Origin: Hexactinellida sp. DTS-2022
Lineage: Eukaryota > Porifera > Hexactinellida
NCBI GenBank assembly: GCA_028753945.1
Contig: JAPNXP010000009.1
Span: forward strand, 1,426,001 to 1,490,000
DNA: 64,000 nt
Reading direction: 5' to 3'
Shown here: positions 495 to 62,620 of the stretch, one piece after another
Numbering within the stretch: position 1 is the first letter of the stretch
How the letters are laid out: each line of letters begins with the position of its first letter
Made by a program: the position numbers and the translations under genes
The notes under the pieces: generated by a model
The model's database searches: none
Seen by the model: the letters and a program-made list of their open reading frames with translations, nothing else
Told to the model about the DNA's origin: nothing

Positions 495-2714
495 TCAATT
501 CAAACGAATGATAGGGAAATGCTTAGACAAACAAAAATCGAATTCTGGCGGGTGGGTGGTGTTCATTTTGTGGCCAGAAGCTGCCAGGTTCATTGTCACG
601 ATATTCATTTTAGCAACTTTCAGTATCTTCTCCTGCTCGGGAGTTTTGCATTCTATATTTTCAAGACTGGTTTTAGCGACCTGAAAATGCTTGGAAGAAG
701 ATTGGAACATTTTGTCTCTCTCCGCTGGGTTCAGCTGTTCGATATCTGAGTTTTTAATGTACTTTTCGTACAAGAGAGGATTCGGGGTGGAGAGGTAAGA
801 GAAGGGGAGGAACCTCTGTTCGTAGCAATACTCCTTCTTTCCCTGTTCAAACGTGGGCACTGTTATCTTATTCGCCAGCTTGAGGCCCTCGATAGCTCTG
901 AGGTACCCAATGGTGATCAGCCGAAGTATGTTCAGATAGACTCTCTCGTTATCAAACCCTTGAACCTTTAGAGTAAAATCCTTCTTATTGCGCTTTTTAG
1001 CACCGCTTCCCTTGCTTTTCTTCCCGACAGGCTCCGAGGTGGCTGAGAGCAGATTCTGTGTCATCTCTGCACAGGACTGTCTGCACCCAAGGAGGTACTC
1101 CATGTACCAGAATATGTAGTGGAACTCGAACAGACTGTAGAGCTCGTACTCGAATCCCAGCTGGAGATAGTCCGTCATAATCTGCAGGATGTGGTACAGG
1201 ACCCAGGAGACAAAGTAGCCGATGTGACTCTCGGGAGGGGACACTTGTTCCCCGATTTTGTGCAACTGAACATCGAATGAGTCAGCATCAGTCAGCATCT
1301 GGCCCAGAGACTGGAAGGTGGAGTGTTGGAGGGTTTGGTACTGGCGGGCTCTGCTGAGACACAGGTAGTTCAGAACCTCCAGCACTGAGGTCTGCACTCG
1401 CGCCAGGAACTGGCCGACTAGCTTGCGAGTGTGCGGCTTAGCTGACATCTTAGAGGCGGGGTTGAGGGAGGGGGGATTGCAGAAGAACTTGATCTCATCT
1501 CGGAGCCATAAATCGAACTGGTAGTTCCCAAGGAGTTGGTTCCGGTAGCAGAGCATCTGCTTGAGGTAGGAGCGAGCGAGCACATTGGGGCGGAGCTTGT
1601 CAGTGGGGTCCTTGGAGAAGGAGGATATGTGCTGGTAGATGGATCTGAAGCTGTCGTGTCTGAGGATCGAGACTACCGAAGCCAGGTCTTCCAGGCAGTG
1701 CTTGACACAAGCAGTGGACTCTTGGAATGCAAGGATTGAAGTCTTTCTGGGGTTTGGGGGCAGCAGTGTCAAATCAGGAGACTCGAACCCATACGCCGCC
1801 CAGTCAGTAACCTCAGCGGCAAACGAGTGAGTGTGACAAATAGAGTCTAACAACTTGACAGCAGCCATGATATGTGAGTAAGCAGTCTCCATGAAGGAGA
1901 GATCAGGGAACATGTCCAGCGAACAGACCGCGGCATACAGCACCTGCATCAGCCTCACGCGCAGCAGTATACTCCCCTCGCAATTCAGCTGTTTCAGCAA
2001 GTCTGCCAGCGGAGCAGAGGGGGATATGCTCCTCTCAATTTTGAACCACTCAATGGTCTCTGCTAGCTCTCCCTTTATGGCGCTAGGCTGTGTGTCTACT
2101 AGGAATGAGAAATTGAAACTGAGATCCATTGCGTCCTCTTCCTCCTGGACAGCGGCCCGACGGACAGCCTCCTTAAAGGAAAACATAATCTTAACGAGAG
2201 TCCTCGTGAAAGAACGCACGAGCCTGTTCTCTATTTGCTCTGTGGAGACCGCATGGCGGAAAGAGAACACGGTCTGCACGAGGGTATTGCCTTCTAACCA
2301 AGTCGCCAAGCAACATAGAAAGTAGTCCATCACAGCTATCACTTCTGCATCTGTCAAGTTCTCCTTGAGAGCAGCCAGTTCCGTCTGTGGACACAGCTCC
2401 TCAGACTTCTTGTCTGACAGCTCGATGGCAGACATGCCCTCCAGGAGAGTGAATGCGTCCACGTGGATCATCTCTCCCAGATCCAACTCGTCGCACGCGG
2501 CTCTTAGCAGCCCTGTTACCTCTTCGTAGTCACAAGGGAATTCCGGGATGTGTGGAGCAGAACATGTTTGTTCCTGGTTAGTTTGCTCACTGCATTGATT
2601 TGTTGGAGTTTCAGAGTTACATTGTAATTGGTCTGTATTTTCAATTGGCTTAGCGGATCTATCCAAATCATTTGTCAAGCCTACTGGCTCTGAGAAATTA
2701 TATCTCACAGCCAT
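495..2714 (-). CDS. NAA35: N-alpha-acetyltransferase 35, NatC auxiliary subunit (MAK10)
   Basis: A single open frame of 739 residues, close to the ~725 of vertebrate NAA35. NAA35/Mak10 is the large auxiliary subunit of NatC, which with NAA30 and NAA38 acetylates N-terminal Met followed by a hydrophobic residue on nascent chains at the ribosome. After a variable, polar first 60 residues the conserved family core is seen: a DLGEMIHVDAFTLLEGMSAIE-like segment near residue 75-100, then LTDAEVIAVMDYFLCCLATWLEG. A lysine-rich insert (KKSKGSGAKKRNKK) lies around residue 570 and the C-terminal helical part follows. The first ATG is taken because the reading frame meets AT-rich DNA with stops just upstream. 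No intron is needed. The next gene downstream on the strand is the RGG protein at the left edge. Confidence 0.95.
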   Translation of the reverse strand: MAVRYNFSEPVGLTNDLDRSAKPIENTDQLQCNSETPTNQCSEQTNQEQTCSAPHIPEFPCDYEEVTGLLRAACDELDLGEMIHVDAFTLLEGMSAIELSDKKSEELCPQTELAALKENLTDAEVIAVMDYFLCCLATWLEGNTLVQTVFSFRHAVSTEQIENRLVRSFTRTLVKIMFSFKEAVRRAAVQEEEDAMDLSFNFSFLVDTQPSAIKGELAETIEWFKIERSISPSAPLADLLKQLNCEGSILLRVRLMQVLYAAVCSLDMFPDLSFMETAYSHIMAAVKLLDSICHTHSFAAEVTDWAAYGFESPDLTLLPPNPRKTSILAFQESTACVKHCLEDLASVVSILRHDSFRSIYQHISSFSKDPTDKLRPNVLARSYLKQMLCYRNQLLGNYQFDLWLRDEIKFFCNPPSLNPASKMSAKPHTRKLVGQFLARVQTSVLEVLNYLCLSRARQYQTLQHSTFQSLGQMLTDADSFDVQLHKIGEQVSPPESHIGYFVSWVLYHILQIMTDYLQLGFEYELYSLFEFHYIFWYMEYLLGCRQSCAEMTQNLLSATSEPVGKKSKGSGAKKRNKKDFTLKVQGFDNERVYLNILRLITIGYLRAIEGLKLANKITVPTFEQGKKEYCYEQRFLPFSYLSTPNPLLYEKYIKNSDIEQLNPAERDKMFQSSSKHFQVAKTSLENIECKTPEQEKILKVAKMNIVTMNLAASGHKMNTTHPPEFDFCLSKHFPIIRLN

Positions 2715-3000
2715 ATACTTAAATGATTTAATTAATTAATTAGTTATATCAACTAATTCTGTATAGAAAATGAAATAAATAAATGTAAAATGTTACATTG
2801 CAAACGCGGTTTTGGTGTAATCGCGGACTGCAACATAAACATATATAAGAAGAGTTCGTTACCTCTCTGGTGTGAAATCGATAACAAAATAATTAACAAT
2901 GCCATCTAGTTGGGCTAGAATTCTACCAATAAAGATTAGAAAATAGAAAGAGAACTAAGAAAGATCCCGAACTAATTCGCTATAAATAATAATTAGTGGC

Positions 3001-6000
3001 TTATTCATCATGGTAGGAGCAAGGGGAGATTTCTAGCTCAGCGCAAAGCTTCTCCATCTCCTCGTGCATCGCTTCAAGAGACCAATTCTATAAAGAAATA
3101 GATGGGTGACATTAAAGTGCATAGTGTTACAGTCAGAGGGTGGATGGATTGGAATCCTAGTTCAAATTCAGTTCATAATCCATAACGGATTTATAAATCC
3201 AATGGAAATAGATACCCTAGAAATAAGGATTTCAGATGAATTTCCAAATCCGTAAAACCTATAATCCATCCTGATCCTGTAACGCAGTGTGTACTCACCT
3301 CAGTTTCATTCAGGTCACTGTGTTTGAAGCGGGAGATGGGGTGAAATGGGACATTGTGAAACTGTTTTAAATACACCTTGCAACACGTTGGGTACTAATT
3401 AAATAAAGTACGTAAATATAAAAACAATATTTAGCAGAGCTTTATGGAATGGAAGTTGGTACCTTCAGTTTCTGGAGAGGATCTGTGATAAGCAAGAATT
3501 TGTGGACCTTATCAGCTCGCGGGTCGTTTCTATTATTCAGCATCCAAGCACACAGCCACGGGAAGAAGTTGAGAGATATTCCACTGTACCCATTTGCTCC
3601 CGCTGCAAGCGCAGACTTGAACAGCAAACTCTGACCAGTGTAGAAGCTAGATGCAATTACAATTATGTTTTGTTTGTGCCTAAGTAACAACAGTGAAAGT
3701 ATAAAAACTATCCTGGCATACTAGCTCACCCTAATCCAGATTCCGGGGTGTCATTAACTGTTTTGATTAGCTCCATCATTTGCCCTCTATCGGAATGATT
3801 GCACTTGTAGTATATGAATCTCTGCGTAGACACCATCCACTCGACTATTCTAGGGCTCAGGAGCCTGCAGGCAAGAGTCAATAAGACACTCTATAACTAT
3901 AGTATACACGTATGAAATGCAACCTGATTTCTGGATAAGGCGTTTCATATACTCCTAGAGGGAAATCACCAGTTCCGTCCACAATCGCTTGAGCATTCTT
4001 AAGCCACACATCATCACTCTATTTTATTAGTTAATGCATATAGTCAACTCTCGTTATAACGAAGTGCTTGGGACCTGTAAATTCCTTCGTTATAAGCGGA
4101 TAATAATTAATGCATTTAATGCTCTGGGGAGAATATCCATTTCATTATAAACGGGTATTAATTATATCCGACTTCGTTATAACGGGAGTTCACTGTATTT
4201 GTTGTTATTACATGTATCATTAAGTAGCGAAAAACTAACTTCATCCATTTCACAGATCTGATTCGTAATGAATACAGCAGCGGTAGCGAAACCCTTTATG
4301 CTGTTAATGAACTCAATGTGCTTCTTAACGCCTCCCTCGTATGTAGCTAGAACACACCAGGAGATTAAAGTTCTGTAACTTAATCAAACTAGTTTATGCC
4401 ATTAACTCCATATTGTGCATTAGTTAATATAATTATGAGTCAGGTGATTACCTCCCACAACTACAGGAACTTTCCGGTTGGATCTTTCGCAAACTCTCTT
4501 AGCTATTTCGAATCTCTCTTCGTAGCTCAACTATAGAATAATGAATTGAATATTAGCAGTGATTCAACAAAAGCAGGTAACTCACATCAAACATCTCGCC
4601 GGAGAGACATATTGAGAACAGTCCGTTGACTCCACTTTTGATGTACCAATCAGTCAAAGCTACATTAATAACAACAATAAATCTCCAACGTTAAAAATAT
4701 ATATCTAATTAGTTAGGTCACGATTGGAGAACACTGCAAACTAATTGAAACAGTATACAGATGACATCACTTAAGGGCTGAGACACAATATGCCACAAGT
4801 ATCAAGTTGCTTTTTGTAAGGTATAGGCTAATAGCAATAGATATACAAGATTGGAGAATCACAAGTGGAGAAATAACTAAATGCTTTCTCAAATAATAAT
4901 TTTAGCTTTGATTTTGGTGACAGAAGGAGCTAATCAAGAGGGGCTAACATGTAACTTTAGAAGGGAAAGGCATTTAGAGTGCGTGTTGTCTAGCAAATAC
5001 GATAAATTTGACATATCTTCTCAAGTTGAGAAGAATAGGTTGGAAGAAGTGGCGGATATCAAGCTGATAGTAGGTACTCCTGAAGAGCCGTACGAACCTC
5101 CTGCTAATAGCAGCGGAATAGCGTACCCTGAGTGGGGACTCATGAAGAAGCTCACCAACATAGACATCCAGTTTAACCTGAATACTGGAGCAGAGGAGCT
5201 GAGTCTCAACTTAGAAGGATTCCGGTACATGTCAGTGGACAGTTTCAAGGGAGTCGCTAGACTACAGAGTTTCGAGGTGAGCAGCAACAGTGCAGAGGTC
5301 GGATTCGAGGTGGGTATGGTGTCTGGGTCGAATCGGCTGGAGAGACTGTGGGTGGAGGGAGCCTCCATAGACGCACGAGAGGGCTGGGATAATCTCGCTA
5401 ACATTAATGACCTGAAACTGTCGGGAGAGCAAATAGGAAGCTTCGACTTAGGCTGGCTACCTCTGGAGGCACTCTCTTCACTCGATCTCAGTTTGAAGGA
5501 ACTGAGAGGCCTGAATGAGACAATTGCAGCGGAGATGTCCCACGTCTCGTACTTGGCACTCACAGTGTCACAAACACAGCAACTAGACTGGGGATTCATC
5601 AATACAATAGCCGGACGCTTGCATACTCTAAAGTTAGATGGGTTTGCACTAGGAGACATCCAGATGGGCACTATCCACCCGCGCTCCAACATCCAAGAAC
5701 TAACCTTATCAGGCAGCCCTGACACTAGGTCTATAGGGAAATACTCCTTCAATAGTGCCAACTATAGAACTATCGAACTGAGAGGAATGGAGAAACTATC
5801 CTACGTTGGGGGGCACGCATTTTCTGGCGCAACAGAGCTGGAGACTCTAACGATAACAGAGATGCCAGTTCTCACAGAGCTGACACAAACACTGGGCGAA
5901 GGGGTGGCTCCACACACCGTCAAGTTTAACAATAACAGTAAACTCGCACAGATATCAATAAGAATATTCCAAGGAATAACAAACTATAAAGAAGATAGAC

Positions 6001-30914: not shown

Positions 30915-30964
30915 ATGTTCTTATAAAAACTATATAGAATTATTAAACGGTATGGAACGGTACT

Positions 30965-31105
30965 GTCACTGGAATATTGGTCCCCCGGACCAATTTTTCG
31001 GGTAAATTGGTCCGGGGGACCAATATTCCATGGAAATATGGTCTTAGCCTGAAAATTTTGGTCCCACATGGGACCAATATTCCATGGAATTTTGGTCCCG
31101 GTGTA
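30965..31105. repeat. palindrome array 1 (TTGGTCC...GGACCAA / TTCCATGGAA)
   Basis: About 140 bp made of alternating palindromes with a period of about 31 nt: TTGGTCC-CCC-GGACCAA and AATATTCCATGGAA, then further copies with variant loops. It begins with TGTCACTGGAA, also seen at the edge of array 5 (57823) and inside it (57570). It abuts the PHD fragment and the CYP4 promoter region. Confidence 0.85.
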
Positions 31106-31253
31106 GGGTCTGTCCACGCCAGTATCGGGATCCGCATACATTCTTGTGAAACCATTCTTGACAATCTGCACATTGTATCATTTTGCCTCCTTCCTGAGTA
31201 CGGCATTTACAAAATATATCGATCCTCTTTCTATTTTTACTTAGATTTTTCAC
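31106..31253 (-). pseudogene. half of a PHD finger, truncated
   Basis: The minus strand reads a basic stretch and then IDIFCKCRTQEGGKMIQCADCQ-EWFHKN. These are the first four Cys ligands and the His of a PHD zinc finger. The second half of the finger is absent because the sequence runs into palindrome array 1. It is probably a fragment of a chromatin gene exon or of a transposon-borne PHD. It is not a complete gene. Confidence 0.6.
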
Positions 31254-31361
31254 TTTCTATTTTCACTCACAAACTAAAGATAGTGAAGGATTTGGGCAAT
31301 ATATAGAAGACTATGCCTTGAGCCTATAGGTTATATATGGGTGGCCTTGGGTGGGGTGACC

Positions 31362-31565
31362 CAGGGTTGCCGTGGGTATGGGAATCAGATTTCCCCTATG
31401 GGGATACCCCTTTTATGGATATCAATACAAGTATACAAAGCCGTTACACCAGTTACGACATTTTTTCTGAATTGTTATAGCAGCCTATTTGTATGTGTGG
31501 AAAGTTGCAAATGATTCATATGGGAATGGGATGGGAATGGAAATTCCACTCCCACGGCAACCCTG
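31362..31565. mobile_element. hAT-like MITE with CAGGGTTGCCGTGGG ends
   Basis: The ends are perfect inverted repeats, CAGGGTTGCCGTGGG and its complement. Just inside are runs of GGGAAT/ATTCCC. The centre (31408-31527) is a block also found inverted at 59126-59244. No exact target duplication was seen, so the right flank may be rearranged. Confidence 0.7.
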
Positions 31566-31740
31566 GCACTTGGGTCCCTATATCTCCGAATTGATCCCTA
31601 TATCGCTAGCGTTTTTGAGCTTATAGGTTATATATGGGTGGGGTCCCTATATCTCTGAATTGATACCTAAATCGCTAGCGTTTTTGGGATCCATGGGGTC
31701 CCTAAATCGCTGGATACCTAAAACGCGCTTACACCGGTGT

Positions 31741-31975
31741 CATAGTAAATCCTGTTCCCCCGAACAGGATTTCCTAGGAAATATTGTTCCCCCGAACAAT
31801 AATTCCTAGGAAATCCTGTTCCCCACACCATATTTCCTAGGGAATAATGTTCCCCCCGAGTGTTTCCCCCTGGTTAATTTTGTTCCCCCGAACAATATTC
31901 ACTAGCAAATATTGTTCCCCCGAACAGTATTCGCTAGTAAATATTGTTCCCCCGAACAGTGCAGATTCACTAGAA
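31741..31975. repeat. palindrome array 2 (TTGTTC-CCCC-GAACAA / TTTCCTAGGAAA)
   Basis: About 235 bp with a period near 32 nt. Each unit is a palindrome TGTTC-CCCC-GAACA followed by ATTTCCTAGGAAAT or a decayed form (TTCACTAGCAA, TTCGCTAGTAA). The layout is the same as array 1, but the arms differ (GTTC/GAAC instead of GGTCC/GGACC, CCTAGG instead of CCATGG). Confidence 0.85.
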
Positions 31976-32129
31976 AATTATCTTCCCCTCAATACAAAAT
32001 GGAACTAAGGTTACTAGAATATGTAGAAAAGTTGTGAATTACCTATTATTACATACTTCTCGCTCTTTGAACACCCTGCTGTATACTTTCCTCCCGGAAG
32101 ATATAGGCGAATATGGGGACATACCTAAT

Positions 32130-32245
32130 TTCCGGAACGGGACGGTATGGAACGGTACCATTCCGGAAAATCAAAGTACCTAAATTACGGAACGGTACCA
32201 TTCCGGGAAATTTAAATACCTAAATTACGGAACGGGATAGACGCC
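32130..32245. repeat. palindrome array 3 (GGAACGGTACCATTCC)
   Basis: Two and a half units of about 40 nt with GGAACGGTACCATTCCGG palindromes separated by a TACCTAAATTA spacer. It is shorter and less regular than arrays 1, 2 and 5. Confidence 0.65.
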
Positions 32246-32937
32246 CCAGGTTATTGGTTAACTTAATAACTCAGTCGCAACATTCAACCTTTTTTCTCCA
32301 CTAAATTTCTTGAGATACCATCCATCTTTTCAACTTATTATAATAATATTGTATTTTACCATTATTATTTCTTTACTTCTTCCATATTTCCGAACACATC
32401 CTGAAGTATCAAACCTGGAGCTCAATGCTCTTTTAATCTTCAGCAATTTCTTGTTAGCCATTTATTTGTTCTAATTTATTTTATGTTTGTTTTTGTCTCA
32501 GTATTCTCTGCAGAAAAGAGGACCCTAAGGAAGATCACTTGATTCACTTCATGTGATTAGGTTTTCTTTTCAAAATAAAATATTTTACTTTTATATTACC
32601 TGTTGTATGTGTACTTTTATATTTTACTTTTATATTACATCATGTTGTATGTACTTTTATATTACATGTTGTATGTACTTATATTACATGTTGTATGTAC
32701 TTTTTAATATATGAGAAATTCATGATGATGACCAATAGATAAAGTATTCGCTTAGTTCCCTAAATCTATTGTAGTAAATAGTATTACAATTATATATTTA
32801 CTATCTTGGGTATACTATATACTTATGCTATTTCGTCGATTTCTATAATATAGTATTGGGAAAAGCTGAGAAATACATAATTTAAAACTCGATTGTTGTG
32901 GGTAACAAGTGAAAAGACTAGCTTCCAAGCTCTAAAT

Positions 32938-33112
32938 CCTATGGGAATGCAAGGCGAATTCCCATACGTAGGAATCCTGTGTAAAATTGTAAATGCTATG
33001 GGAATTCCCACATGTGGGAATCCTGTGGGAAATCCTATGGGAATCCTATGGGAATTCCCACAGAAATCCTGTGGGAATGGGAATGAAAATTCCCTTCCCA
33101 CGGCAATCCCTG
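32938..33112. repeat. palindrome array 4 (GGGAATTCCCACATGTGGGAAT)
   Basis: Overlapping palindromes built from TGGGAATTCCCA and CCCACATGTGGG. It ends in CCCACGGCAATCCCTG, a close match to the right end of the hAT-like MITE at 31565. This suggests a related MITE whose interior became a palindrome array. Confidence 0.65.
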
Positions 33113-33172
33113 CTTGAAGCCCCTTATAAACATGTTCCACTGCATCGTATTCACTACATACGAACCAGTAAC

Positions 33173-38074: not shown

Positions 38075-38905
38075 AGGGACGTTATGATTTTGAATTTTCA
38101 TTAATGTGTTTACCTATTTGTGTAAACAACAACAACAACAAATACTCATATTATAATTTTATAAATGCGAAATTCGTGTTCGCCATCCTTGTTTACCTAT
38201 AATACTCGTTGAAAGCGAACTTCTGGTTTGATTTTGAATTTTCATTAATTTGTTTACCTTTTTGTGTAAACAACAACAACAAATATTCACATTATAAATT
38301 TATAAACGCGAAATTCGAAATAAGCATACTTGTTTACCAATAATACCCGTTGAAAGCTAACTTTTGGTTTGATTAGAATTTCACTAATTTGTTTACCTTT
38401 TTGTGTAAACAACAACAACAAATATTCATATTAGAAATTTATAAACGCGAAATTCGAAATCAGCATACTTGTTTACCTATTATACCCGTTGAAAGCAAAC
38501 TTCTAGGTTGATTTTGAATTTTCAGTAATTTGTTTACCTTTTTGTGTAAACAACAACAACAAATATTCATATTATAAATTTATAAACGCGAAATTCGAAA
38601 TCAGCATACTTGTTTACCTATAATACCCGTTGAAAGCTAACTTCTGGTTTGATTTTGAATTTTCACTAATTTGTTTACCTTTTTGTGTAAACAACAACAA
38701 ATATTCATATTATAAATTTTTAAACGCGAAATTCATGTTCAGCACACTTGTTTACCTATAATACCCGTTGAAAGCTAACTTCTAGGTTGATTTTGAATTT
38801 TCATTAATTTGTTTACCTTTTTGTGTAAACAACAACAACAAATATTCATATTAGAAATTTATAAATGCGAAATTCGTGTTCAGCATACTTGTTTACCTAC
38901 TATAT
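38075..38905. repeat. tandem core of six ~140-bp units
   Basis: Six copies with starts of the GTTTACC landmark at 38107, 38252, 38391, 38532, 38673 and 38811 (spacings 145, 139, 141, 141, 138). Each holds the hairpin GTTTAC-CTTTTTGT-GTAAAC, a CAACAACAA run whose length varies, AAACGCGAAATTC and ACCCGTTGAAAGC. Unit-to-unit identity is high, so the array has been homogenised. Confidence 0.93.
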
Positions 38906-49013: not shown

Positions 49014-49384
49014 TTGTTCTGAGCTATTACAGGAAGTTAATATATGTAGTTATTAATTTTATTTGTTTGCATTACTTAGCGATTAATATAATTTCGATCC
49101 AATCCTCTGTACAAACTATCCATTTTAGCTACGCTTCTTTTGATTTTCTTAACTTAGGAAAAATACTCATAGTGCAAAGTTCTACAATCTATTTATTACT
49201 TCGTCTTTTTCCCTAAATAATTAAAAACACAAATCTAAAATTAATATTAACTATTCTCTAAAAACTCTTATTCATGTTTCTTATTTGTATGCGTCTCAAC
49301 TCTCAACACAGGAAAACCAGGTTTTGAATCATAATTTAATATTATACAGTATTTCTTCATACCTTAACAAATGTATACATAAGG
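49014..49384. other. spacer EZH to gene A, duplicated before gene C
   Basis: About 370 bp, AT-rich. It holds the EZH 3' UTR and the gene A promoter. It matches 59275-59686 upstream of gene C, so C kept A's upstream sequence. Confidence 0.7.
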
Positions 49385-51766
49385 ATGGCACGAGTAGAAG
49401 ATGAGGATGACTTGCGCTCTATTCCAATGGTAGAAGATTATATAAGTCAATTACCGATGGATGATCAGGCTATATTGACTGAGCACTACTTACCAGTTAA
49501 TAAAATTATTGTGGAAATGCGAGCTACTCTCTCAGGAGCTTCTAAGACAAACGCAGAAGTGTTAGAAGACGCAGTACGGGAACGGTGCGTGGATGTTCCT
49601 GAGAAGCAAATCAGAAAGATTGTCAAGATTCTAACTATGGCTATAGACTATATGCAACCTCGCATATTGGAGAAGATAAATAAATCTGGTCGATTACAGA
49701 GTGGTACTTGTGTACCAGGTAGTAATTGTCACTATACAAAGAAATACTTATTGGAAACAGTTAAATTTTTCGCAAATATTTCTCAACCCTCGGATGGTAA
49801 AGGTAACATTTCCATTAATCTGTTTAATGTCCATACTGATGACAAACTGAGTGCTACCAAGGTTATATCTCCTATCGATCTCGTAACTTACTCACAAATG
49901 AAAATAATAGAACTGGTCCCTGGAATAGTTAATACAAATAAAGTGATATACTGTACTCTGGTAATTGATGGACACATCATGGGATCTTTTTTCCACACAG
50001 TTGTTGAAGATGATTTCGGACAGTGCGCTAAGTTGTCTCTCCGTAATATCACTCCTGAATTACAGGATTTTCTGAAGAAAGGTATACAAATAGCTATTCC
50101 GAACCCTTATTACAAACTTGGGACAACCGATGAATTAAATTTTATTAGAATGGATTGTCCAGCTAACATTATACCAATAAAAAATGATTTAACTCTAAGT
50201 GAAAGCGAAGAAATTTATAATCAAGAAGATTTAATTTTGAATCATTCAAGTGAAGATTGCAAACTAGAAGGAAATAAATACTTCAAAGCTGGTGAATACT
50301 ACAAAGCAGTTTCTTGCTACACTATTGCTATTGCGAAAGATTCTTCTAACCCAGTGTATTTGAGCAATCGGGCTCTATGCTACCTAAAGTTAGATTCGTT
50401 TGAAGCCGCTCTCCAAGACGCAGAAGCAGCAGTCAGCCTGGATCCCAGCACACACAAGTACCAGTACAGACTGGCTATGGCCTGGTCTGCATTGGGGGAT
50501 CATCAGAAGAGTGTAGAAATCCTGGAGACGATGCAAGCTAATTCTGAATGCTTAGCCTTTCTGAGTAAAGAGAAAAAGCTACTTAACAACAGTCGAGGAA
50601 TATTCAATTTCGATGAAATGGCTCAAATGGCGAGGCTAGGAGAAGAACTGGAAATGGCAGACTTTATTGGTCCAATTATGATCGACAAATCTTCTAGGTA
50701 TGGACATGGCGTATTTTCCGCCCGGGATATCAAGAAAGGAGAACTAATTTGCGTCCAGAAAGCTATTGCTTATCTAGACCCAAATAGACATCCCCTTAAA
50801 GATTACGGAGAATTAATTATTTTTGCTAATCATATCAGTATTTCACCGACAAATACTATACAAAGGATGAAACGATCCTTGACCGATAAAATAGCTAAAT
50901 CTAAACTGTCAGAGTTTCGACTTTCTATGTTATTTACAAAACATACCAACAGTGAACCAATTTCAATTGAGTTGTATAGAAGCAAAGGATATGAGTTGAT
51001 TCGGGAGAAAGATAAGCCTCCATTTCAATTGGATGCATTAGTTACTTTAATTAAGGAAAATTCACAAGTATACTCCCATCCAGATGATCCTCATAACGAA
51101 GAAATGATTACTGTTGGAATATGGCCAATTCGCGCTTTCCTTAATCATTCATGTCTCGCTAACACTTTGCAAACTTATTACAAAGATGTTTGTATTATCC
51201 GCTCATTTGTCGACATTCCTAAAGGAACTGAACTAACTACACAATGGGTTTCCATCTTATTCAATGTGGAAGCACGTCAGGCAAAGTTGAAAGAATTGGG
51301 CCTCTTTTGTGATTGTGGATTATGTGAATTTGAATCTGATCCTAAAAATAAGACTTTATTAGAAAGAGCTGTCCTTTTGAGGGAGCGGGTTGATAAACTC
51401 ACTGACGCTAAATTTAATCCTAATTACCCATTTAAGCACGAAGCTGAAAATGATCTTTTGAATGAAGCTTTCTCTCTAGCAGAAGAAATGAAGTTGGGTC
51501 CCACTCGATTCAACCGAGCCTTGTGGGAAGCTATGCTGTATTTGCTATCTTCGAGTCCCAAACCGAGATACCATAAAAGGTTGCTAGATTCTTTTTATCG
51601 AGCAAAATCCATTTTGTGTGATTTAGAAATACAACATCAACATGATTTTTGGAAAACATGGTGTTTATTCATCAGAACGTGTAAGGCTCCTCTGTCAAAA
51701 GAGCGTAAGAAAGAAATTCGAGATAAACACAAGTTCATAATTAAATATCTAACTGACATACCTTAA
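49385..51766 (+). CDS. TPR-SET domain protein, paralogue A
   Basis: 793 residues, one exon. Residues 1-100 are an acidic helical leader (EDAVRERCVDVPEK). About 160-265 form a beta-rich module ending IAIPNPYYKLG, as in fungal and plant SET-TPR proteins. Three TPRs span about 290-400 (EGNKYFKAGEYYKAVSCY). A SET domain covers about 430-650 (YGHGVFSARDIKKGEL, RAFLNHSCLANTL) with a post-SET CDCGLC cluster. There is no MYND finger, unlike SMYD4. The usual SET tyrosine after G-x-E-L-T is not there (GTELTTQWVS), so methyltransferase activity is doubtful. Codons are AT-rich, unlike EZH upstream. Substrate unknown. Confidence 0.88.
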   Translation: MARVEDEDDLRSIPMVEDYISQLPMDDQAILTEHYLPVNKIIVEMRATLSGASKTNAEVLEDAVRERCVDVPEKQIRKIVKILTMAIDYMQPRILEKINKSGRLQSGTCVPGSNCHYTKKYLLETVKFFANISQPSDGKGNISINLFNVHTDDKLSATKVISPIDLVTYSQMKIIELVPGIVNTNKVIYCTLVIDGHIMGSFFHTVVEDDFGQCAKLSLRNITPELQDFLKKGIQIAIPNPYYKLGTTDELNFIRMDCPANIIPIKNDLTLSESEEIYNQEDLILNHSSEDCKLEGNKYFKAGEYYKAVSCYTIAIAKDSSNPVYLSNRALCYLKLDSFEAALQDAEAAVSLDPSTHKYQYRLAMAWSALGDHQKSVEILETMQANSECLAFLSKEKKLLNNSRGIFNFDEMAQMARLGEELEMADFIGPIMIDKSSRYGHGVFSARDIKKGELICVQKAIAYLDPNRHPLKDYGELIIFANHISISPTNTIQRMKRSLTDKIAKSKLSEFRLSMLFTKHTNSEPISIELYRSKGYELIREKDKPPFQLDALVTLIKENSQVYSHPDDPHNEEMITVGIWPIRAFLNHSCLANTLQTYYKDVCIIRSFVDIPKGTELTTQWVSILFNVEARQAKLKELGLFCDCGLCEFESDPKNKTLLERAVLLRERVDKLTDAKFNPNYPFKHEAENDLLNEAFSLAEEMKLGPTRFNRALWEAMLYLLSSSPKPRYHKRLLDSFYRAKSILCDLEIQHQHDFWKTWCLFIRTCKAPLSKERKKEIRDKHKFIIKYLTDIP

Positions 51767-53066: not shown

Positions 53067-53311
53067 AATATGAAATATTTAGACTAATTAGTAAATAATA
53101 AAATATTAGAATTTAATTGATATCAAAAGTTTTCAAAAAAATACAGTCGAACATACTTTTCCTTAGTACGTGCTAAATTTCAAACAAAGTTCGAAACATA
53201 TCTCAAATACAAATACAAAGCGGCTTCAATTCCCAATGACTTTTAACTAAGTTATTCTGTGACATATATTTTATGTTTATACGCTTGTTTGTCTTATTGA
53301 TAGTAGTAGAG

Positions 53312-55717
53312 ATGGAACAAATGGAATATAAGTATTGGAATGCCTTAGATCACATTCCCATTAACACTCGAATCCAATTCGTAACAATGATGGAAGAATA
53401 TGTAAGCCAAATTCCAAAGGGAGATGAGATCTTACTGAGAGAACACTACCTTCCAATCACAAAAATTCATATGAGAATGCGAACAACTCTTTCTGGAATT
53501 GCTAAGACAGATGATCAAGTGTTAGAAGACGCAGTGAGAGAACGGTGTGTTGATGTTCCTGAGAAGCGAATCAAAAGGATAATCAGCATTCTAGATAAGA
53601 TTCTAAAGTACAGTGGGCCTCGCGTATTTGAAATGATGACACATAAGAAGTCGGGTCGATTACATAGTGGTATTTGTGTACCAGGTAGTAACTGTCACTA
53701 TACGAAGGAATTCATGATGCATTGGATTTCATTATTTTCAAAAGATAGCCAACCACAGGAACGTGAGGATGACATTTACTTTGATCTAGATGTCCATACC
53801 TATGACCACCTGAGTGCTACCAAGGTTATATCTCCTATCGATCTCCGTACTTACACACAAATGAAAATAATAGAACTGGTCCCAGGAATAGTTAATACAA
53901 ATAAAGTGATATACTGTACTCTGGTAGTTGAGGGATACACCATGGGATCTTTCCACACAGCTGTTGAAGATGATTTCGGACAGTGTGCTAAGCTGTGCAT
54001 CTTCAATATAAATCCTGAATTACAGAATTCTCTAAAGAAAGGTGTGAGGATAGCCATTGCAAACCCTTATTACAAACTTGGGACAGTCGATGATTACTAT
54101 TTTATTAGAATGGATTCTCCAGAAGAGATTATAGTAATAATTTATAATCAAGAAGATTTATATTTGAATCAATCAAGCGAAGATCACAAACTTGAAGGAA
54201 ATAAATACTTCAAAGCTGGTGAATACTCCAAAGCAGTTTCTTGCTACACTATTGCTATTGCGAAAGATTTTTCTAACCCAGTGTATTTGAGCAATCGGGC
54301 TCTATGCTACCTAAAGTTAGATTCGTTTGAAGCCGCTCTCCAAGACGCAGAAGCAGCGGTCAGCCTGGATCCCAGCACACACAAGTACCAGTACAGACTG
54401 GCTATGGCCTGGTCTGCATTGGGGGATCATCAGAAGAGTGTAGAAATCCTGGAGACGATGCAAGCTAATTCTGAATGCTTAGCTTTTCTGAGTAAAGAGA
54501 AAAAGCTACTCAACAACAGTCGGGGAATATTCAATTTCGATGAAATGGCTCAAAAGGCGAGGCGAGGAGAAGAACTGGAAATAACAGACTTTATTGGTCC
54601 TATTATAATCGACAAATCTCGTAAACATGGACATGGAGTATTTGCCACCCAGGATATTAAAAAAGGGGAATTGATTTGCGTCCAGAAAGCTATTGTTTGT
54701 TTAGAGCCAAAGGAGAGAGATCCCCTTAAAGATAAAGCAGAAATATGTATTTTTGCTGATCATATCAGTATTTCACATGCAAGGCTAATACCAAAGATGA
54801 ATCAATCTTTAATTGAAAAAATTGTTAAATCTAAATTGTTAGCGTTTCGATTATTCACTTTATACACAAAGCATTTGAACAGCGAACCGATCTCAATCGA
54901 GCTTTACAGTAGCAAGGGATACCAGTGTATTAGAGATAAAGAAAAGCCTGTGTATCAGATGCAACAGATAATAACTATTATTCAGAAAAACGCACTCTCT
55001 TACACCCATCCTGCTGACCCTCGTAATGTTGAGATGAACACACATGGTCTCTGGTTAATTCGCGCATTCTTTAACCATTCATGTCTCCCTAACTCATCAC
55101 TCACTTTCTACAAAGATGTTTGTGTTGTTCATGCAAATGTAAAGATTCCTAAAGGTACTGAGCTAACTGCTCCACGAATTTCAATTACTCAATTAAGTTT
55201 AGAAGAACGTCGTAATATACTTTTGAGTGAATGGGACTACATATGCGATTGTGAGCTCTGCGAATTCGAGTCAGATCCTAGAAACAAGAATGCGTTAGCA
55301 AGAGCTATTCTGCTGAGAGAGAGAGCTGACGAGCAAACTGAAGAGTCATACTATTCTGATTATCCTGCAACGCAAGATTTCCACTTCAAACTTTTAGATC
55401 AGGCATTCTCTCTTGCAGAAGAAATGAAATTAGGTCCCACTCGGTTCAACACAGCTGTGTGGCAAGCTATACACTTTTTAATTTCCCCAATTCCTGAGCC
55501 TAAAGACCATAAGAAGTTCCTTAGAGTTCTTAACCGAGCCAAATCTATTCTTTGTGATTACGAACTGGGGTATCAGCTTGCGGTTTGGAAAAGATGGAAG
55601 TCATTTCTTGAAACTTGTCAAGCTCCTCTTCCAGATGCTTGTGAAACTGAAGTTGAAGAAAATTTCAAACTATTGAGTTCTTATCGAAGCAACGTTCCTG
55701 CGAACATAACTAAATAA
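53312..55717 (+). CDS. TPR-SET domain protein, paralogue B
   Basis: 801 residues from the ATG at 53312. An in-frame ATG 39 bp upstream is not conserved in copy D, whose sequence lacks it, so the later start is preferred. Domain order is as in A: leader, beta module (VRIAIANPYYKLG), TPRs, SET (HGHGVFATQDIKKGEL, RAFFNHSCLPNSS), post-SET CDCELC. The SET tyrosine position reads GTELTAPRISI, so again no Tyr. The TPR block is nearly identical at the DNA level to those of A and C, although the C-terminal 350 residues are much more diverged from A. B is the parent of D. Confidence 0.88.
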   Translation: MEQMEYKYWNALDHIPINTRIQFVTMMEEYVSQIPKGDEILLREHYLPITKIHMRMRTTLSGIAKTDDQVLEDAVRERCVDVPEKRIKRIISILDKILKYSGPRVFEMMTHKKSGRLHSGICVPGSNCHYTKEFMMHWISLFSKDSQPQEREDDIYFDLDVHTYDHLSATKVISPIDLRTYTQMKIIELVPGIVNTNKVIYCTLVVEGYTMGSFHTAVEDDFGQCAKLCIFNINPELQNSLKKGVRIAIANPYYKLGTVDDYYFIRMDSPEEIIVIIYNQEDLYLNQSSEDHKLEGNKYFKAGEYSKAVSCYTIAIAKDFSNPVYLSNRALCYLKLDSFEAALQDAEAAVSLDPSTHKYQYRLAMAWSALGDHQKSVEILETMQANSECLAFLSKEKKLLNNSRGIFNFDEMAQKARRGEELEITDFIGPIIIDKSRKHGHGVFATQDIKKGELICVQKAIVCLEPKERDPLKDKAEICIFADHISISHARLIPKMNQSLIEKIVKSKLLAFRLFTLYTKHLNSEPISIELYSSKGYQCIRDKEKPVYQMQQIITIIQKNALSYTHPADPRNVEMNTHGLWLIRAFFNHSCLPNSSLTFYKDVCVVHANVKIPKGTELTAPRISITQLSLEERRNILLSEWDYICDCELCEFESDPRNKNALARAILLRERADEQTEESYYSDYPATQDFHFKLLDQAFSLAEEMKLGPTRFNTAVWQAIHFLISPIPEPKDHKKFLRVLNRAKSILCDYELGYQLAVWKRWKSFLETCQAPLPDACETEVEENFKLLSSYRSNVPANITK

Positions 55718-56099: not shown

Positions 56100-58110
56100 T
56101 TGTGATCTCCTCCCTTGTCAATTGGCGGGGGGAACATGATTAGTATTCCCAGGTCTTCCATTTCAATGCGAAGGCGTTCACGGCCCGGCCTCCGGGTCTG
56201 GACGCTAACTCACAAATTTCTCAACCTGGTTGTTCAAGCGAGGGGCGAAAAGTCAACGTGTGGGGTCGGTAGAGGATTGCTCCGAAAACTTTCGGTCAGA
56301 GACGCCATTCGTGTTTATGTGCGTTCAATTGGCGGGATCTGTCGACGTAGCGAACTGTAGTGGTATTGTCCGCCGGGACCAAGACATGCGTTCTGGGAGT
56401 GGCAAATAACTTCACTCCAAATAAATTAGCTTTCAATTCTAAGAGGTTGATGTTAAGCGTCTTCTCTAGGGAGAAGCAGGCTCCCGAGGCTCGTTTCTCC
56501 TGGCAAGAGGCCCCCAGCCTGTTAGCGAGGCGTCGGTTTGGATAAGCAGGCTTATCACTGGAATCAGAAAAGGGCTGGAATTCCAATCTTCCGCCTTTGT
56601 CATCCACCAGGTGACGTTCGCCTGGGATGATTGGGAGAGAGAGATGGACATACTGATTGTAGTTGTTCGACACCAGGAGCGAACTGAAGGGCTCGATAGA
56701 ATAAAGGAGCTATTGGGATAGCTATTTTGGTAAAGCTCAGCAATCCGACCTGTGCTGATATTTCTCTGGCTGAGCCGCCCCTTGTGTGCTTTTCTCTGAC
56801 TCTCATATTTGATTTTGTCAGAGTTCGTTGGGGTACTCGTAGGAGCTTCCGGCGTGTGTCCATTATAGTTCCTAGGAAGTATATGGTTTGTTGGGGCGTG
56901 AGAATGAATTCTCCCAATTCACAATGAATCCCAGGTTCTATATGAACGAGATGGTAACATTGATATGAGCCGTCAGTATTGCCTTCCTGGTGTCCGTTAG
57001 CAGCATGTCGTCTAGGTATGCTACTATCTTGATCCCTTGGGATCGGAGATAGGAGAGGGGTCTCTTCAGCAGTTTTGTGAAGACGTATGGTGCCATGCTC
57101 AGGCCGAATGACATTGCCCGGTTCTGGAAAGTTTTTTCCTGCCAGAGATATTGGAAGAACATCGGGATTCCTTCCAAATTGCCACTGCGAGATAGGCATC
57201 CTTCAAATCTATTTTTGGCTGACGAGTTTCCCAAGGAAACTGAGTACTTTATACAATGCTGGCCCTCCATCTTGAAGTGGGGAGGGTTGAGATGTTTGTT
57301 CAGCGCTTTGAGATTTCGTATTAATCTCCATTGACCCGAGTTCTTGAGCCGGAGAAACAAGGGGTTAGAAAATATGGTTCTGTCGCGGAAATTTTGGTCC
57401 CCTTGGAAAATTGGTCCGGGGGGACCAAAATTTTCATGGAAATTTGGTCCTTCTGTGGAAAATGGGTCCTTCTGAGGTTTGTGTTTATTTATTTACCGTA
57501 TTTACTATAATAGTAGCCTAGGCGATTTTCGCCATATTGGGATCAAAATGTTTTATGAATAAGCCTGTCACTGGAAAATTGGGCCCCGAAAAATTGATCC
57601 GGGACCTAAACTCCATGGAAAACTGGTCCTAGGACCAATTTTCCATGGAATTTTGGTCCCCCCGGACCAATATTACGGGAAAAAATTGGTCCCCCGAACC
57701 AAATTTACCCGAAAAGATTAGTCTGGGGGACCAAAATTCCATGGAAAAATGGTCCTAGGACCTGTTTTCCATGGAATATTGGTCCCCCGGACCAATTTTT
57801 TCGGGGACCAATTTTCCAGTGACAGTTCCTCCACTGTCTCTATGGCTCCTATGACCAATAGGCGGTCGATCTCCTGGGTTGCTGTCAGATGTTGCTATGC
57901 GGTAGATATGCAATTGTGAGGCGGAGTTGTCGAGTATAGGTTCTGGGGGTCTCGCCTTTACGTAGTGCCGAATTTCGGGTTCAAGATGGATTAACTGCCA
58001 ATTGTTTTGAAAGGATAGTCGGGCTGCGTTCGGGGCGCCAATGTGGGGCGCATGAACTTCTTGAAGAGATCGTGAGGAGTTATTGCCTCCCGGGAGCATA
58101 TTTCCCCCCT
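56100..58110 (-). mobile_element. fossil DIRS-like retroelement (RT and RNase H parts)
   Basis: On the minus strand are pieces of a reverse transcriptase with the AYLDDM active-site box and the FGLSMAPYVF segment typical of DIRS elements, followed by an RNase H-like part (about 56300-56670). An upstream flank related to the region before the RT lies at 57820-58100. The copy is old and broken in several places and cannot be active. Palindrome array 5 lies inside it. No terminal repeats or tyrosine recombinase part were recognised, so the true ends are unknown. It lies in the duplicated TPR-SET region between B and C. Confidence 0.75.
57391..57823. repeat. palindrome array 5, inserted in the DIRS fossil
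   Basis: About 430 bp of the same family as array 1: TTGGTCC-GGGG-GGACCAA, TTTTCCATGGAAAA and TGGTCCTAGGACCA alternate at about 31-33 nt. Both edges carry related sequence (TCTGTCGCGGAAA at the left; the inverse of ACTGTCACTGGAAA at the right), suggesting inverted ends of a mobile unit. An internal TGTCACTGGAAAATTGGG near 57567 suggests two units. Confidence 0.85.
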
Positions 58111-59125
58111 CTTATCGTTGCCTTTGTGTGGGCTTGGCTTGGGATCAGTGTATTATACAGCCATTTGTAAATACGCTCCTAATCCTGGTCTGATCTAATT
58201 TCATACGTCTAAATCACAAATTATTGTTACCGTATAAGAGAAGGTTCCAAATTTTCGTGCTCCTAAATTCAAATTTTGCAAAAATTATGCTCCAGAAGGA
58301 GCGTCTCACGCTCCTGGATAATTCCTTGCTTGGGATACTGGTTTGGACGGTAATGCTGGTTCGTCCCACTGGGGCCGCTCCCCCAGTGGGACCCGTCCGA
58401 AAAAACTGGTTTGAGTTTTGGGATGTATCACCGTAGCCAGATGGTTTGGGCCGTTTGACATTAGGTGATTTGGATAATTTATCCAGTTGGGATTGTTCGT
58501 TATTAAAGTCGGTTGGGCCTTTGGGAGGTCAGCACAGACTGACCCGGTGATGCCCAGACTTGTAACGGCAAGTCCGCTGTTTTGAAGCGTCCCGCGCCAC
58601 CTCTCCGGCAACAAGGTGGTTACAGTACCTCCGGGTACTCCTGGCCCAGTGCCTGTTCCTATAATGGCTGCCTCATGGCAGCACGCTAACCCAATCACAA
58701 CTGCTCACTGAGACGCTTTCTGAGTTACGTTACCTGATACCACAGAGTGCCTGTCAGGAAATTCCTGCTGCATGAATGTTCTAACTGTGGCTCCTACCAC
58801 CGACAAAAATCCCGATTCCTGACACGCTCTCTTTGACTCGTCCAATTTAGTGGAGCGAAAATTCCACACAGAATTATTACTTAATTGTCACATTTGGCTA
58901 TAACTCACGCACCATTATAGCTAGAAAGTTGACTGTGTGGTTCAGAATCATAGCAGATACTAAAATTCCGAGCAAATCATATCAAAAACTGAATGGAAAT
59001 TTTAGAGACCAAAATCCTATCTTCAAGCCCGGAGGGCGGAGGGAGCCGGAGGGCGGGAATTCAAAAATTCTAAAGAGGGGTGATGCAAGATTTGATGGCC
59101 ATTTCAGTCGCAACATTGGTACGCC
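58111..59125. other. repeat-derived spacer of unclear origin
   Basis: About 1 kb of moderately GC-rich DNA upstream of the DIRS fossil. It has a strong CCCACTGGGGCCGCTCCCCC-type hairpin near 58365-58395 and GGAGGGCGGGA units near 59030-59060. Open frames here show no family signal. Confidence 0.4.
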
Positions 59126-59244: not shown

Positions 59245-59686
59245 TTGTCAGTGTTGAGCGGGAGTTGGATAGTTGATTGTTCTGAGCTGTTACAGGAAGT
59301 TAATATAGTTATATAATTTTATTTGTTTGCATCACTTAACGATTAATATAATTTCGATCCAATCCTCTGTACAAACTATCCATTTTAGCAACGCTTCTTT
59401 TGATTTTCTTAACTTAGGAAAATTACTCATAGTGCAAAGTTCTACAATCTATTTACTACTTCCAGTCTTTTCCCCTAAAGATTAAAAACTACATTTCAAA
59501 ATTTTATATTACCTTTCCATACAAACTCTTATTACTGAAGTCTGTTAATATTAATTATATGGTGTATATGACATGGTAATCAGGTAATGAGTCTCAACTC
59601 TCAAGCATGCGGGCTGGAAAAACAGGTTTTGAATCATAATTTAATAATATACAGTTTTTCATATTTTAACAAATGTATACATAAGG

Positions 59687-62620
59687 ATGGCACGAGTAGA
59701 AGATGAGGATGACTTGCGCTCTATTCCAATGGTAGAAGATTATATAAGTCAATTACCGATGGATGATCAGGCTATATTGACTGAGCACTACATACCAGTC
59801 AATAAAATTATTGAGGAAATACAAGCTACTCTCTCAGGAGCTTCTAAGACAAACGCAGAAGTGTTAGAAGACGCAGTACGGGAACGGTGCGTGGATGTTC
59901 CTGAGAAGCGAATCAGAAAGATTGTCAAGATTCTAACTAAGGCTATAGACTATATTCAACCTCGCATATTGGAGAAGATCTCTGGTAATAAATCTGGTCT
60001 TTTGCACAGTGGTATTTGTGTACCAGGTAGTAACTGTCACTATACAAAGGAATTCATGATGGATTGGATTTCATTATCTTCAAAAGCTAGCCAACCACAA
60101 GAACGTGAGGGTCACATTAAAATTAATCTGTTGAGCTATAATGCCTATGACCACCTGAGTGCTACCAAGGTTATATCTCCTATCGATCTCCGTAATTACA
60201 CACAAATGAAAATAATAGAATTGGTCCCAGGAATAGTTAATACAAATAAAGTGATATACTGTACTCTGGTAGATGATGGACACATCATGGGATCTTTCCA
60301 CACAGCTGTTGAAGATGATTTCGGACAGTGTGCTAAGCTGTGCATCTTCAATATAAATCCTGAATCCCAAAATATTCTGAAGAAGGATGTGAGGATAGCT
60401 ATTGCGAATCCTTATTACAAACTTGGGATGGATGATTACTATTTTATCAGAATGGAATGTCCAGCTAACATTATTCCAATTGAAAAAATAGATTTAACTT
60501 TAATTGAAAGCGAAGATCAAAAACTAAGAGGAAATAAATACTTCAAAGCTGGTGAATACTCCAAAGCAGTTTCTTGCTACACTATTGCTATTGCGAAAGA
60601 TTCTTCTACCCCAGTGTATTTGAGCAATCGGGCTCTATGCTACCTAAAGTTAGATTCGTTTGAAGACGCTCTCCAAGACGCAGAAGCAGCGGTCAGCCTG
60701 GATCCCAGCACACACAAGTACCAGTACAGACTGGCTATGGCCTGGTCTGCATTGGGGGATCATCAGAAGAGTGTAGAAATCCTGGAGACGATGCAAGCTA
60801 ATTCTGAATGCTTAGATTTTCTGAGTAAAGAGAAAAAGCTACTTAAAAACAGTCGGGGAATATTCGATTTCGATGAAATCACTCAAAAGGCGAGGCGAGG
60901 AGAAGAACTGGAAATAGCAGACTTTATCGGTCCAATAATAATTGACAAATCTCATAAAAGCGGACATGGAGTATTTTCTACCAGGGATATCAAGAAAGGA
61001 GAATTGATTTGCGTCCAGAAAGCTATTGTTCATCTAGACCCAAAGAGAGATCCCCCTAATGATGAAACAGATTTTATTTTTTTTGCTGATCAGATCAGTA
61101 TTTCACCGACAAATTCTTTGCAAAGGTTGAAACCAGTGTTGTAAATCAAATCAAATATTTCAAATATTTGATTTGATTTGATTTGATTTAAGAGAATTTG
61201 AATTCTCAAATGATTTGATTTGATTTGATTTGAAATTATTTGAATCCTCAAATGATTTGATTTGATTTGATTTGAAAATATTTGAATTCTCAAATGATTT
61301 GATTTGATTTGATTTGAAATTATTTCAAATCATTTTCAAATCATTTTCGAATCATTTTTCCAATCATTTTCAGATCATTTTCAAATAATATTCGGTAAAT
61401 CATTTTCAAATCGTTTCCAAATCGCTTTAGTATAATTTCACTTCATTTTCAATTCAATTTCAAATATATAAGATCATTTTCAAAATTTCTATACGTTTTG
61501 ACAGTGATTCAGAAATGATTTGAAAGTTTCAAATATTTCAAATATTTGATTTGATTTGATTTGAAATTATTTGAAATTTCAAATATTTGATTTGATTTGA
61601 ATTGAAATGATTTGAAATCTCAAATGATTTGAAATGATTTGATTTGAAATAATTTTAAATCTAAAATGATTTGATTTGATTTGATTTGAGAAAAAAAAAA
61701 TGATTTATTTACAACCCTGGTTGAAACTATCCTTGACCGATAAAATAGCTAAATCTAAACTGTCAGCGTTTCGATTTTTTATGTTATTTACAAAACGTAC
61801 CAACAGTGAACCAATTTCAATTGAGTTGTATCGAAGCAAAGGATATGAGTTGATTCGGGAGAAAGATAAGCCTCCATTTCAAATGGATGCATTAGTTACT
61901 TTAATTAAGGAAAATTCACAAGTATACTACCATCCAGATGATCCTCATAACGAAGAAATGTTTCTTACCGGATTGTGGCCAATTCGCGCTTTCCTTAATC
62001 ATTCATGTCTCGCTAACACTTTGCAAACTTATTACAAAGATGTTTGTATTATCCGCTCATTTGTTGACATTCCTAAAGGAACTGAACTAACTGCACAATT
62101 GGTTTCCATCTTTTTCAATATAGAAGAACGTCAGGCAAAGTTGAAAGAATGGGGCCTCTTTTGTGATTGTGGATTATGTGAATTTGAATCTGATCCTAAA
62201 AATAAGCCTTTATTAGATAAAGCTGTCCTTTTGAGGGAGCGAGCTGATAAACTCACTGACATTAAATTTAATCCTAATTACCCATTTATGCACGATGCTG
62301 AGTATGATCTTTTGAATGAAGCCTTCTCTCTAGCAGAAGAAATGAAGTTGGGTCCCACTCGATTCAACCTAGCCTTGTGGCAAGCTATGCAGTATATACT
62401 ATCTTCGAGTCCTCAACCTGGGGATCATAAAAGGTTGCTTGATTCTTTCTTTCGAGCGAAATCCTTTTTGTGTGATTTTGAAATACAGCATCAACGTGAT
62501 TTTTGGGATATATGGTGTTTATTCATCAGAATGTGTGAAGCTCCTCTGTCAAATGAGTGTAAGAATGAAATTCGAGAGAAAGACTATGTCATATCTAAAT
62601 ATCTAACTAACATACCTTAA
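59687..62620 (+). pseudogene. TPR-SET paralogue C, interrupted by a hAT MITE
   Basis: Same architecture as A. The first frame (59687-61144, 485 residues) covers the leader, beta module, TPRs and the start of SET (SGHGVFSTRDIKKGEL), then stops just inside a MITE. The rest of SET, with RAFLNHSCLANTL and CDCGLC, lies at about 61728-62620. MITE plus target duplication is 594 bp, a multiple of three, and no other stop is seen, so the insertion looks recent. The product would be a truncated TPR protein unless the MITE is spliced out. The N-terminal ~100 and C-terminal parts match A, while about residues 100-260 match B (HSGICVPGSNCHYTKEFMM), a mosaic that suggests gene conversion. Confidence 0.85.
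61134..61719. mobile_element. 586-bp hAT MITE inside the SET exon of gene C, exact 8-bp target duplication
   Basis: Starts CAGTGTTGTAAATCAAATCA and ends TGATTTATTTACAACCCTG. GTTGAAAC flanks both sides (61126-61133 and 61720-61727). The interior is almost wholly TTTGATTTGA / TCAAATCATTT repeats with AAATATTT palindromes, so it looks like simple sequence, but the ends and target duplication show a transposon. Gene A has the uninterrupted target at 50870. Confidence 0.93.

Follow-up and report, generated by a model that had tools for sequence, protein, structure and literature searches.

Repeat arrays in the window

The window analysed here is a stretch of 64,000 nucleotides that carries five arrays of short repeats, numbered 1 to 5 (Table 1). 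In the preliminary description, positions 30965-33112 were given as one span. They hold several nested or adjoining repeats. Array 1 is the left part only of an element of family A, and this element is cut at its own CCGG (31098-31101). The left boundary of the family-D repeat that follows lies between 31102 and about 31111, and is uncertain because the loci L050 and L060 diverge exactly there. Array 2 belongs to family B. Among the alignment rows listed, the family-B alignments of the window copy stop at 32116, where array 3 starts.

Table 1 Repeat features of the window, with their positions, strand and distinguishing sequences.
Feature	Positions	Strand	Remarks
Candidate 4-bp target duplication GTAC, GNNC type	30960..30963		Left of the family-A element of array 1; right copy not found
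Array 1, part of a family-A element	30964..31101	+	TGTCACTGG end; GGTCC and TTCCATGGAA palindromes
Family-D repeat	31102..31733		Right end ...CGCGCTTACA, then CCGG; other repeats inside
CCGG between D and B	31734..31737		Read from the sequence
Array 2, truncated family-B element, probably Ginger1-type, non-autonomous	31738..32116	+	Terminus TGTCATAGTAAATCC, palindrome array, then interior
Segment 99% identical to L075:824-894	32046..32116	-	Near the open-frame start of the long element
Array 3, a different dispersed repeat	32117..32235		CCTAATTTCCGG, GGAACGGTACCATTCC; relatives in L062 and L067
Array 4, a separate palindromic repeat	32935..33115		TGGGAATTCCCA repeats
Left target duplication GTTC of array 5	57377..57380		Empty site
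Array 5, complete 444-bp family-A element	57381..57824	+	TGTCGCGG...CCAGTGACA, palindromes inside
Right target duplication GTTC of array 5	57825..57828		Empty site

Palindromes were scored as perfect inverted repeats with an arm of at least 6 and a loop of at most 5 bases, and were compared with 500 dinucleotide shuffles. Arrays 1, 2 and 4 had more palindromic arm bases than all 500 shuffles, and the value of array 5 was reached by 7 of 500. Array 3 had no arm bases in inverted repeats of this kind and is not palindromic beyond chance by this measure. The palindromic character first ascribed to the arrays thus holds for arrays 1, 2, 4 and 5, but not for array 3. RNA folding z-scores (60 shuffles) were -9.1, -15.9, -2.1, -8.4 and -17.0 for arrays 1, 2, 3, 4 and 5, respectively. 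When the 128 bins of 500 bases were ranked by arm bases, the array bins at 57500, 31500, 33000 and 31000 came 3rd to 4th, 6th, 7th and 12th. The palindrome-richest bins of the window, above arrays 1-5, were those of ATTTG-type arrays near 61000-61700.

The shared plan of about 32 nt noticed earlier is real. The same-strand spacing of GTTCCCC was measured in 30 family-B sequences (29 loci and the window copy, duplicates removed), and it was 31-33 nt in 167 of 275 cases, exactly 32 in 134. Irregular spacings of 16, 17, 20, 27 and 64 were also present. The hairpin word GGTCCCCCGGACC occurred 147 times in the genome, compared with 65 times for its reversed control, and is a weaker marker than the end patterns described below.

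Family B: ends and target site

Families A and B are both dispersed through the 112-Mb genome, as expected from the initial impression of several families with many copies, and the loci aligned in each have sharp common ends. A genome search with array 2, in which the best 40 of 77 candidates were scored, gave at least 113 matching stretches. The pattern of the B end occurred 118 times, and its reversed control 5 times.

Family-B termini read TGTCA…TGACA, with TGTCA at both ends. Short two-ended copies measured 0.70 to 1.3 kb, and one with a nested element (L069) 2.0 kb. In the short copies inspected, each end adjoins a palindrome array, the two arrays lie inverted to each other, and the interior is AT-rich. 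The two ends differ from each other (TAGTAA vs GAGGAG), and the palindrome arrays are common to both. The number of units varies among copies (e.g., L040 vs L046).

The tetranucleotide following 84 genome-wide B end sites was CCGG in 58, CCTG in seven, CTGG in four, ACGG in three and another in 12; the search pattern excluded T as the fourth base, and with it CCGT. Its reversed control gave 11 matches. After reverse-strand repeats and pairings using internal ends were removed from 70 pairings, 21 two-ended elements were left. CCGG stood on both sides of 13 of these, and the flanks of the other eight were unequal, as they were in L048, whose left end was missed by the pattern. The TAGTAA end is often flanked by CAGG, which is CCTG on the other strand (L041, L048, L050, L051, L068 and others), with CCGG at the other end in most of these copies. 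A duplication that simply decayed does not account for this asymmetry. Elements with duplications of 8 to 10 bp (MuDR, hAT, P) were also considered for families A and B and rejected, as the ends listed had no such duplications.

Some family-B copies are associated with further repeats. The element nested in L069 (C1:1615200-1617500, at about 415-1710) has GGGAAAATTCC ends with tandem CAAGTTTTT-type repeats near them, and is flanked on either side by the 10-bp direct repeat GTAGTAATAT; we take it to be MuDR-like. In L067 (about 732-2155) and L062 (about 485-2097), B copies lie within a larger inverted repeat, which in L067 is about 470 bp long at 97%. The outer ends of these inverted repeats carry array-3-type sequence, and the whole is perhaps a composite element.

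Long copies of family B

Two long copies were found, both flanked by CCGG. The B ends are 4.35 kb apart in L075 (4,352 bp, of which about 0.4 kb is a nested repeat) and 4.58 kb apart in L076 (4,581 bp, a large part of which is taken up by a nested P-type element). As in the short copies, arrays were present at both ends of the long copies inspected. The nested repeat of L075 (about 3130-3545) has tandem TGACCCAT-type units and inverted ends.

Pieces of a broken gene in L075 were compared with Pfam. One matched PHD above the curated cut-off (E 2.2e-9); matches to rve_3 (E 7.5e-4) and SH3_Tf2-1 (E 0.057) were below it. Five of ten pieces had no match, two of ten had weak off-target matches, and two of two further pieces had no match. 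By these profile matches, the pieces show a weak likeness to a Gypsy-type integrase and a clear PHD finger. Motifs of the integrase were made out by eye. No Ulp1 match to Pfam was found among the L075 pieces, where a Ulp1-like motif was seen by eye only. This Ulp1-like stretch recurs at C1:1511202, C1:10649238 and C1:1544648, and a B end or B match lies no more than about 0.6 kb from each. Three pieces searched against the PDB gave nothing relevant; the best match, HIV protease (E 0.004), was taken as spurious. The L075 integrase was absent from the best 150 of 706 integrase candidates in the genome, and no intact transposase was found in the B copies examined.

A second integrase-like set, with 74-83% DNA identity to L075, was found in L077 (C9:1083000-1092990). 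About 7 kb of other DNA, in which there are long open frames, separate its integrase-like pieces, and three of three pieces were without a Pfam match.

Of 51 genome matches to L075:780-2450, 45 fall in its first 115 bases. Such crowding indicates that the short copies keep the start of the coding region, without the rest. Judged by these alignments, array 2 and the other short copies are internal-deletion derivatives of the long element.

Family B compared with Ginger1

Ginger1 elements are described as having 4-bp target duplications of CCGG (75%) or CCGT/ACGG (24%), TGTNR ends, a length of 2.6-7 kb and terminal inverted repeats of about 40-270 bp (PMC2836005). Their transposase is integrase-like and resembles that of Gypsy (H2C2, DDE, GPY/F). 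Nearly all have OTU or Ulp1, and one listed family, Ginger1-9_HM, has both Ulp1 and PHD (PMC2836005). Family B shares with them the CCGG flanks with some ACGG, the TGTNR ends and a length within the range for both long copies (each including nested insertions). Its integrase-like and PHD pieces, which come from a broken gene, may correspond to theirs. The PHD finger and the Ulp1-like motif seen by eye in L075 can be likened to Ginger1-9_HM. By target, termini and length, family B is probably Ginger1; the protein evidence is thin. The earlier statement that no named element of this kind is known is therefore probably wrong for this family. What sets family B apart is the tandem palindromes at its ends, and most of its copies are internal-deletion derivatives. 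The words "tandem" and "palindrom" do not occur in the main text of PMC2836005, and no description of palindrome arrays in Ginger elements was found in the literature searched, which lay mostly outside subscription journals.

It is improbable that family B is moved by a non-Ginger transposase, for example of the P type, and that its integrase pieces were only captured. Such a reading would suit the weak integrase matches and the P-type transposase gene inside L076 (about 2370-3870; THAP, E 7.3e-9, and P-element domains). However, CCGG, TGTNR ends and integrase-like and PHD pieces fit Ginger1 specifically. None of the 12 L075 pieces, which come from a broken gene, had a P- or MuDR-type match in Pfam, and the P-type gene of L076 thus looks like a nested insertion.

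Galileo, with its internally repetitive inverted ends, has several transposase binding sites in the repeats, which are longer than those found here; its transposase is of the P type and has a THAP domain (PMC3688188). Foldback-like elements otherwise use a transposase of the MuDR type. Repetitive inverted ends are common to Galileo or Foldback-like elements and the present families, but the latter have target duplications of 4 bp, which argue for Ginger1 over Foldback/Galileo. "Palindrom" is absent from the main text of PMC3688188.

Families A and D

A genome search with array 5, in which the best 40 of 480 candidates were scored, gave at least 134 matching stretches. The left A-end pattern occurred 159 times in the genome and its reversed control not once. 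Array 5 sits in another dispersed repeat, of which four of four other fetched copies (L071-L074) were without it. At the site where the window has GTTC on both sides of array 5, L071 and L072 read GGTTCCTCC. This host repeat (56600-57380 and 57825-58145) has 24 matches. Its minus strand looks reverse-transcriptase-like by eye, and the one frame piece tried was without a Pfam match.

Family-A termini are TGTCR…TGACA (TGTCA/TGTCG ends). Thirty pairings of A ends were reduced to 23 by leaving out seven that use an internal end. Identical 4-bp flanks, all of them GNNC, were found in 13 of the 23, compared with 0.82 expected on random re-pairing. The exact duplications were GTAC, GTCC, GCTC, GGAC, GTGC, GATC, GAAC, GGCC, GACC and GTTC. 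Family A thus inserts with a 4-bp GNNC duplication. It has the TGTNR ends and the duplication length of Ginger1, but its target is GNNC and not CCGG or CCGT/ACGG. For this reason it is not filed as Ginger1; we regard it as a look-alike family of uncertain superfamily.

No long copy of family A was found among the loci examined. The region C9:1083000-1093500, which also holds the integrase-like pieces of L077, was considered and rejected: its A end is that of an independent element of 240 bp, flanked by GGAC on either side. Among the best 150 of 706 integrase candidates, at least six lay within 12 kb of an A array and at least four within 12 kb of a B array, whereas a hand calculation from the about 117 A and 36 B positions among those listed predicted roughly 3.7 and 1.2. 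At least three pairs of integrase and OTU matches within 5 kb were found among the matches listed (for OTU, the first 96 of 150), one of them on the same strand (C1:5830081-5832931). At C5:4238163-4241466, integrase and OTU matches lie on opposite strands about 1-3 kb from an A array at C5:4241393, with the OTU gene at a distance of about 0.9 kb. The OTU-type gene beside this array is a possible partner of family A.

Family D has TGTAAGCGCG ends and adjoins or interrupts copies of A and B. Its six two-ended pairings had CCGG on both sides in three cases, on one side in two, and CAGG/CCGT in one. One of the pairings with CCGG on both sides (L003) spans 1.9 kb and may join two elements. The D copies inside A are a biased sample among L001-L038, as these loci were fetched for A.

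Nesting of the three families

As read from its boundaries, the block 30964-32116 is a nest of A, then D, then B. Among the 21 two-ended B elements, family-A sequence lay no more than 100 bases away in three (on both flanks of L047 and L050 and on one flank of L055), and family-D sequence in two (L042 and L056). The B element L047 interrupts an A element, whose sequence continues on either side of it. Its place of insertion corresponds to a single CCGG in the uninterrupted A copy L078, and it is flanked by CCGG at one end and CCAG at the other. The density of CCGG is 2.1 per kb for the window as a whole, compared with 5.9-21.7 per kb in four A elements. Many targets are therefore on offer in A, and their density alone may explain the nesting. 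The block illustrates how CCGG-targeting elements pile up.

Changes in the two arms

According to the preliminary description, the arms change on both sides together between families. Paired and one-sided changes were counted among distinct units in four tests, with the 3' letters shuffled 1000 times; because the search anchors hold the centre or a portion of one arm constant, information comes from the remaining positions alone. In B hairpin 1 (60 distinct units), there were 15 paired double changes (shuffle mean 16.0) and 170 one-sided changes, about 11 one-sided to one paired. B hairpin 2 (75 units) had 41 paired changes (mean 32.4, maximum 45) and 164 one-sided. For family A, the counts were eight paired (mean 11.8) and 127 one-sided in hairpin 1 (37 units), and 36 paired (mean 32.4, reached by 238 of 1000 shuffles) and 184 one-sided in hairpin 2 (75 units). 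The excess in B hairpin 2 is weak and comes mainly from one pair, which is C-G in 19 and A-T in 18 of the 75 units. In the commonest B unit (92 of 291 occurrences), the arms are themselves mismatched (T-G).

Most decay in resident copies thus affects a single arm. That there are two families, each with its own palindromes, stands; among copies, three of the four tests showed no excess of joint changes, an outcome named in the preliminary description as a refutation. As most copies are non-autonomous and probably in decay, selection on an active source element would escape this test. More generally, arm covariation seen between repeat families need not be compensatory evolution.

The counts bear on two mechanisms that had been offered for the pattern, selection on pairing and hairpin-driven copying, and in the copies at hand they support neither. 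Hairpins selected for their structure, as DNA cruciforms or RNA, would have co-evolving arms. The strong folding of arrays 1, 2, 4 and 5 (z -8 to -17) and the excess in B hairpin 2 are in keeping with this. The null result in the other three tests, the dominance of one-sided changes and the mismatch in the commonest B unit are not, and the repeats are located at transposon ends with target duplications. We consider this explanation quite improbable. Hairpin-templated copying or conversion, which would write changes into both arms of resident copies, is highly improbable. Some units are indeed perfect palindromes, but conversion would erase one-sided changes, and these dominate: in B hairpin 1 the paired changes are as many as in the shuffles.

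A proposed role for the palindromes at transposon ends

We consider it probable that arrays 1, 2 and 5 are ends of non-autonomous DNA transposons, Ginger1-type in family B and GNNC-inserting in family A, and that the palindromes are likely sites of end recognition. The anatomy of the long B copies is observed directly. Their Gypsy-integrase-like transposase would have cut at TGTCA/TGACA, inserted the element at CCGG and duplicated this target. Family A would be moved by a transposase that is perhaps related. The palindromes would serve the transposase, or a protein that partners it, as repeated dyad-symmetric sites at a spacing of about three DNA turns, and their clustering would provide end recognition. 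If a dimer reads both half-sites, entire families could come to have different arms on both sides with no need for compensatory mutation among resident copies. Arrays would lengthen or shorten as tandem units are gained or lost.

There are precedents for such sites. En/Spm and Ac carry subterminal motifs, which are repeated transposase-binding sites near the ends. Sleeping Beauty and Bari are named as elements with bipartite terminal inverted repeats and repeated sites (PMC3688188), and the binding sites in the repetitive ends of Galileo (PMC3688188) provide a precedent for multiple transposase sites within such ends. Binding of the transposase or a partner protein is the likeliest role of the palindromes. 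The repeated end sites of Sleeping Beauty, Bari, En/Spm and Ac bind transposase, as proposed here. These elements use other transposases, and we know of none among them in which palindromes alternate with a 32-nt period. Double-hairpin elements of fungal mitochondrial genomes are organellar, mobile-looking hairpins with varying arms. Unlike the families described here, they include, to our knowledge, no element with terminal inverted repeats and a target duplication.

Alternatively, the arrays could be neutral minisatellites, expanded within the transposon ends without contributing to movement. The variable unit number (L040 vs L046) and the irregular spacings would be expected from such repeats, and other nested elements of this genome also have tandem repeats. 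On the other hand, the arrays stand at both ends in the short and long copies inspected, dyad symmetry is found in two families, and the 32-nt period dominates in B. We regard neutral expansion as unlikely.

End recognition through the palindromes would account for the striking pattern without a new mechanism. It suggests a group of Ginger1-type elements whose ends are palindromic and internally repetitive, a feature that we have not encountered in the founding paper (PMC2836005). If the palindromes bind transposase, the families are a natural series for how integrase-like transposases find their ends. A bolder form of this proposal is possible but doubtful: a Ginger1-type transposase would read a family-specific dyad code at three-turn spacing, A and B would have diverged by a swap of this code, and the CCGG-rich palindromes would be mutual landing pads, giving rise to the A-D-B nest.

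Other repeats of the window

Three similar long open frames lie in tandem at 49340-51766, 53240-55717 and 59648-62620. By eye, they combine TPR and SET and are SMYD-like. Tandem arrays of the ATTTG type interrupt the third near 61166-61689. A further tandem array, of 141-bp units in 5.8 copies, occupies 38085-38899.
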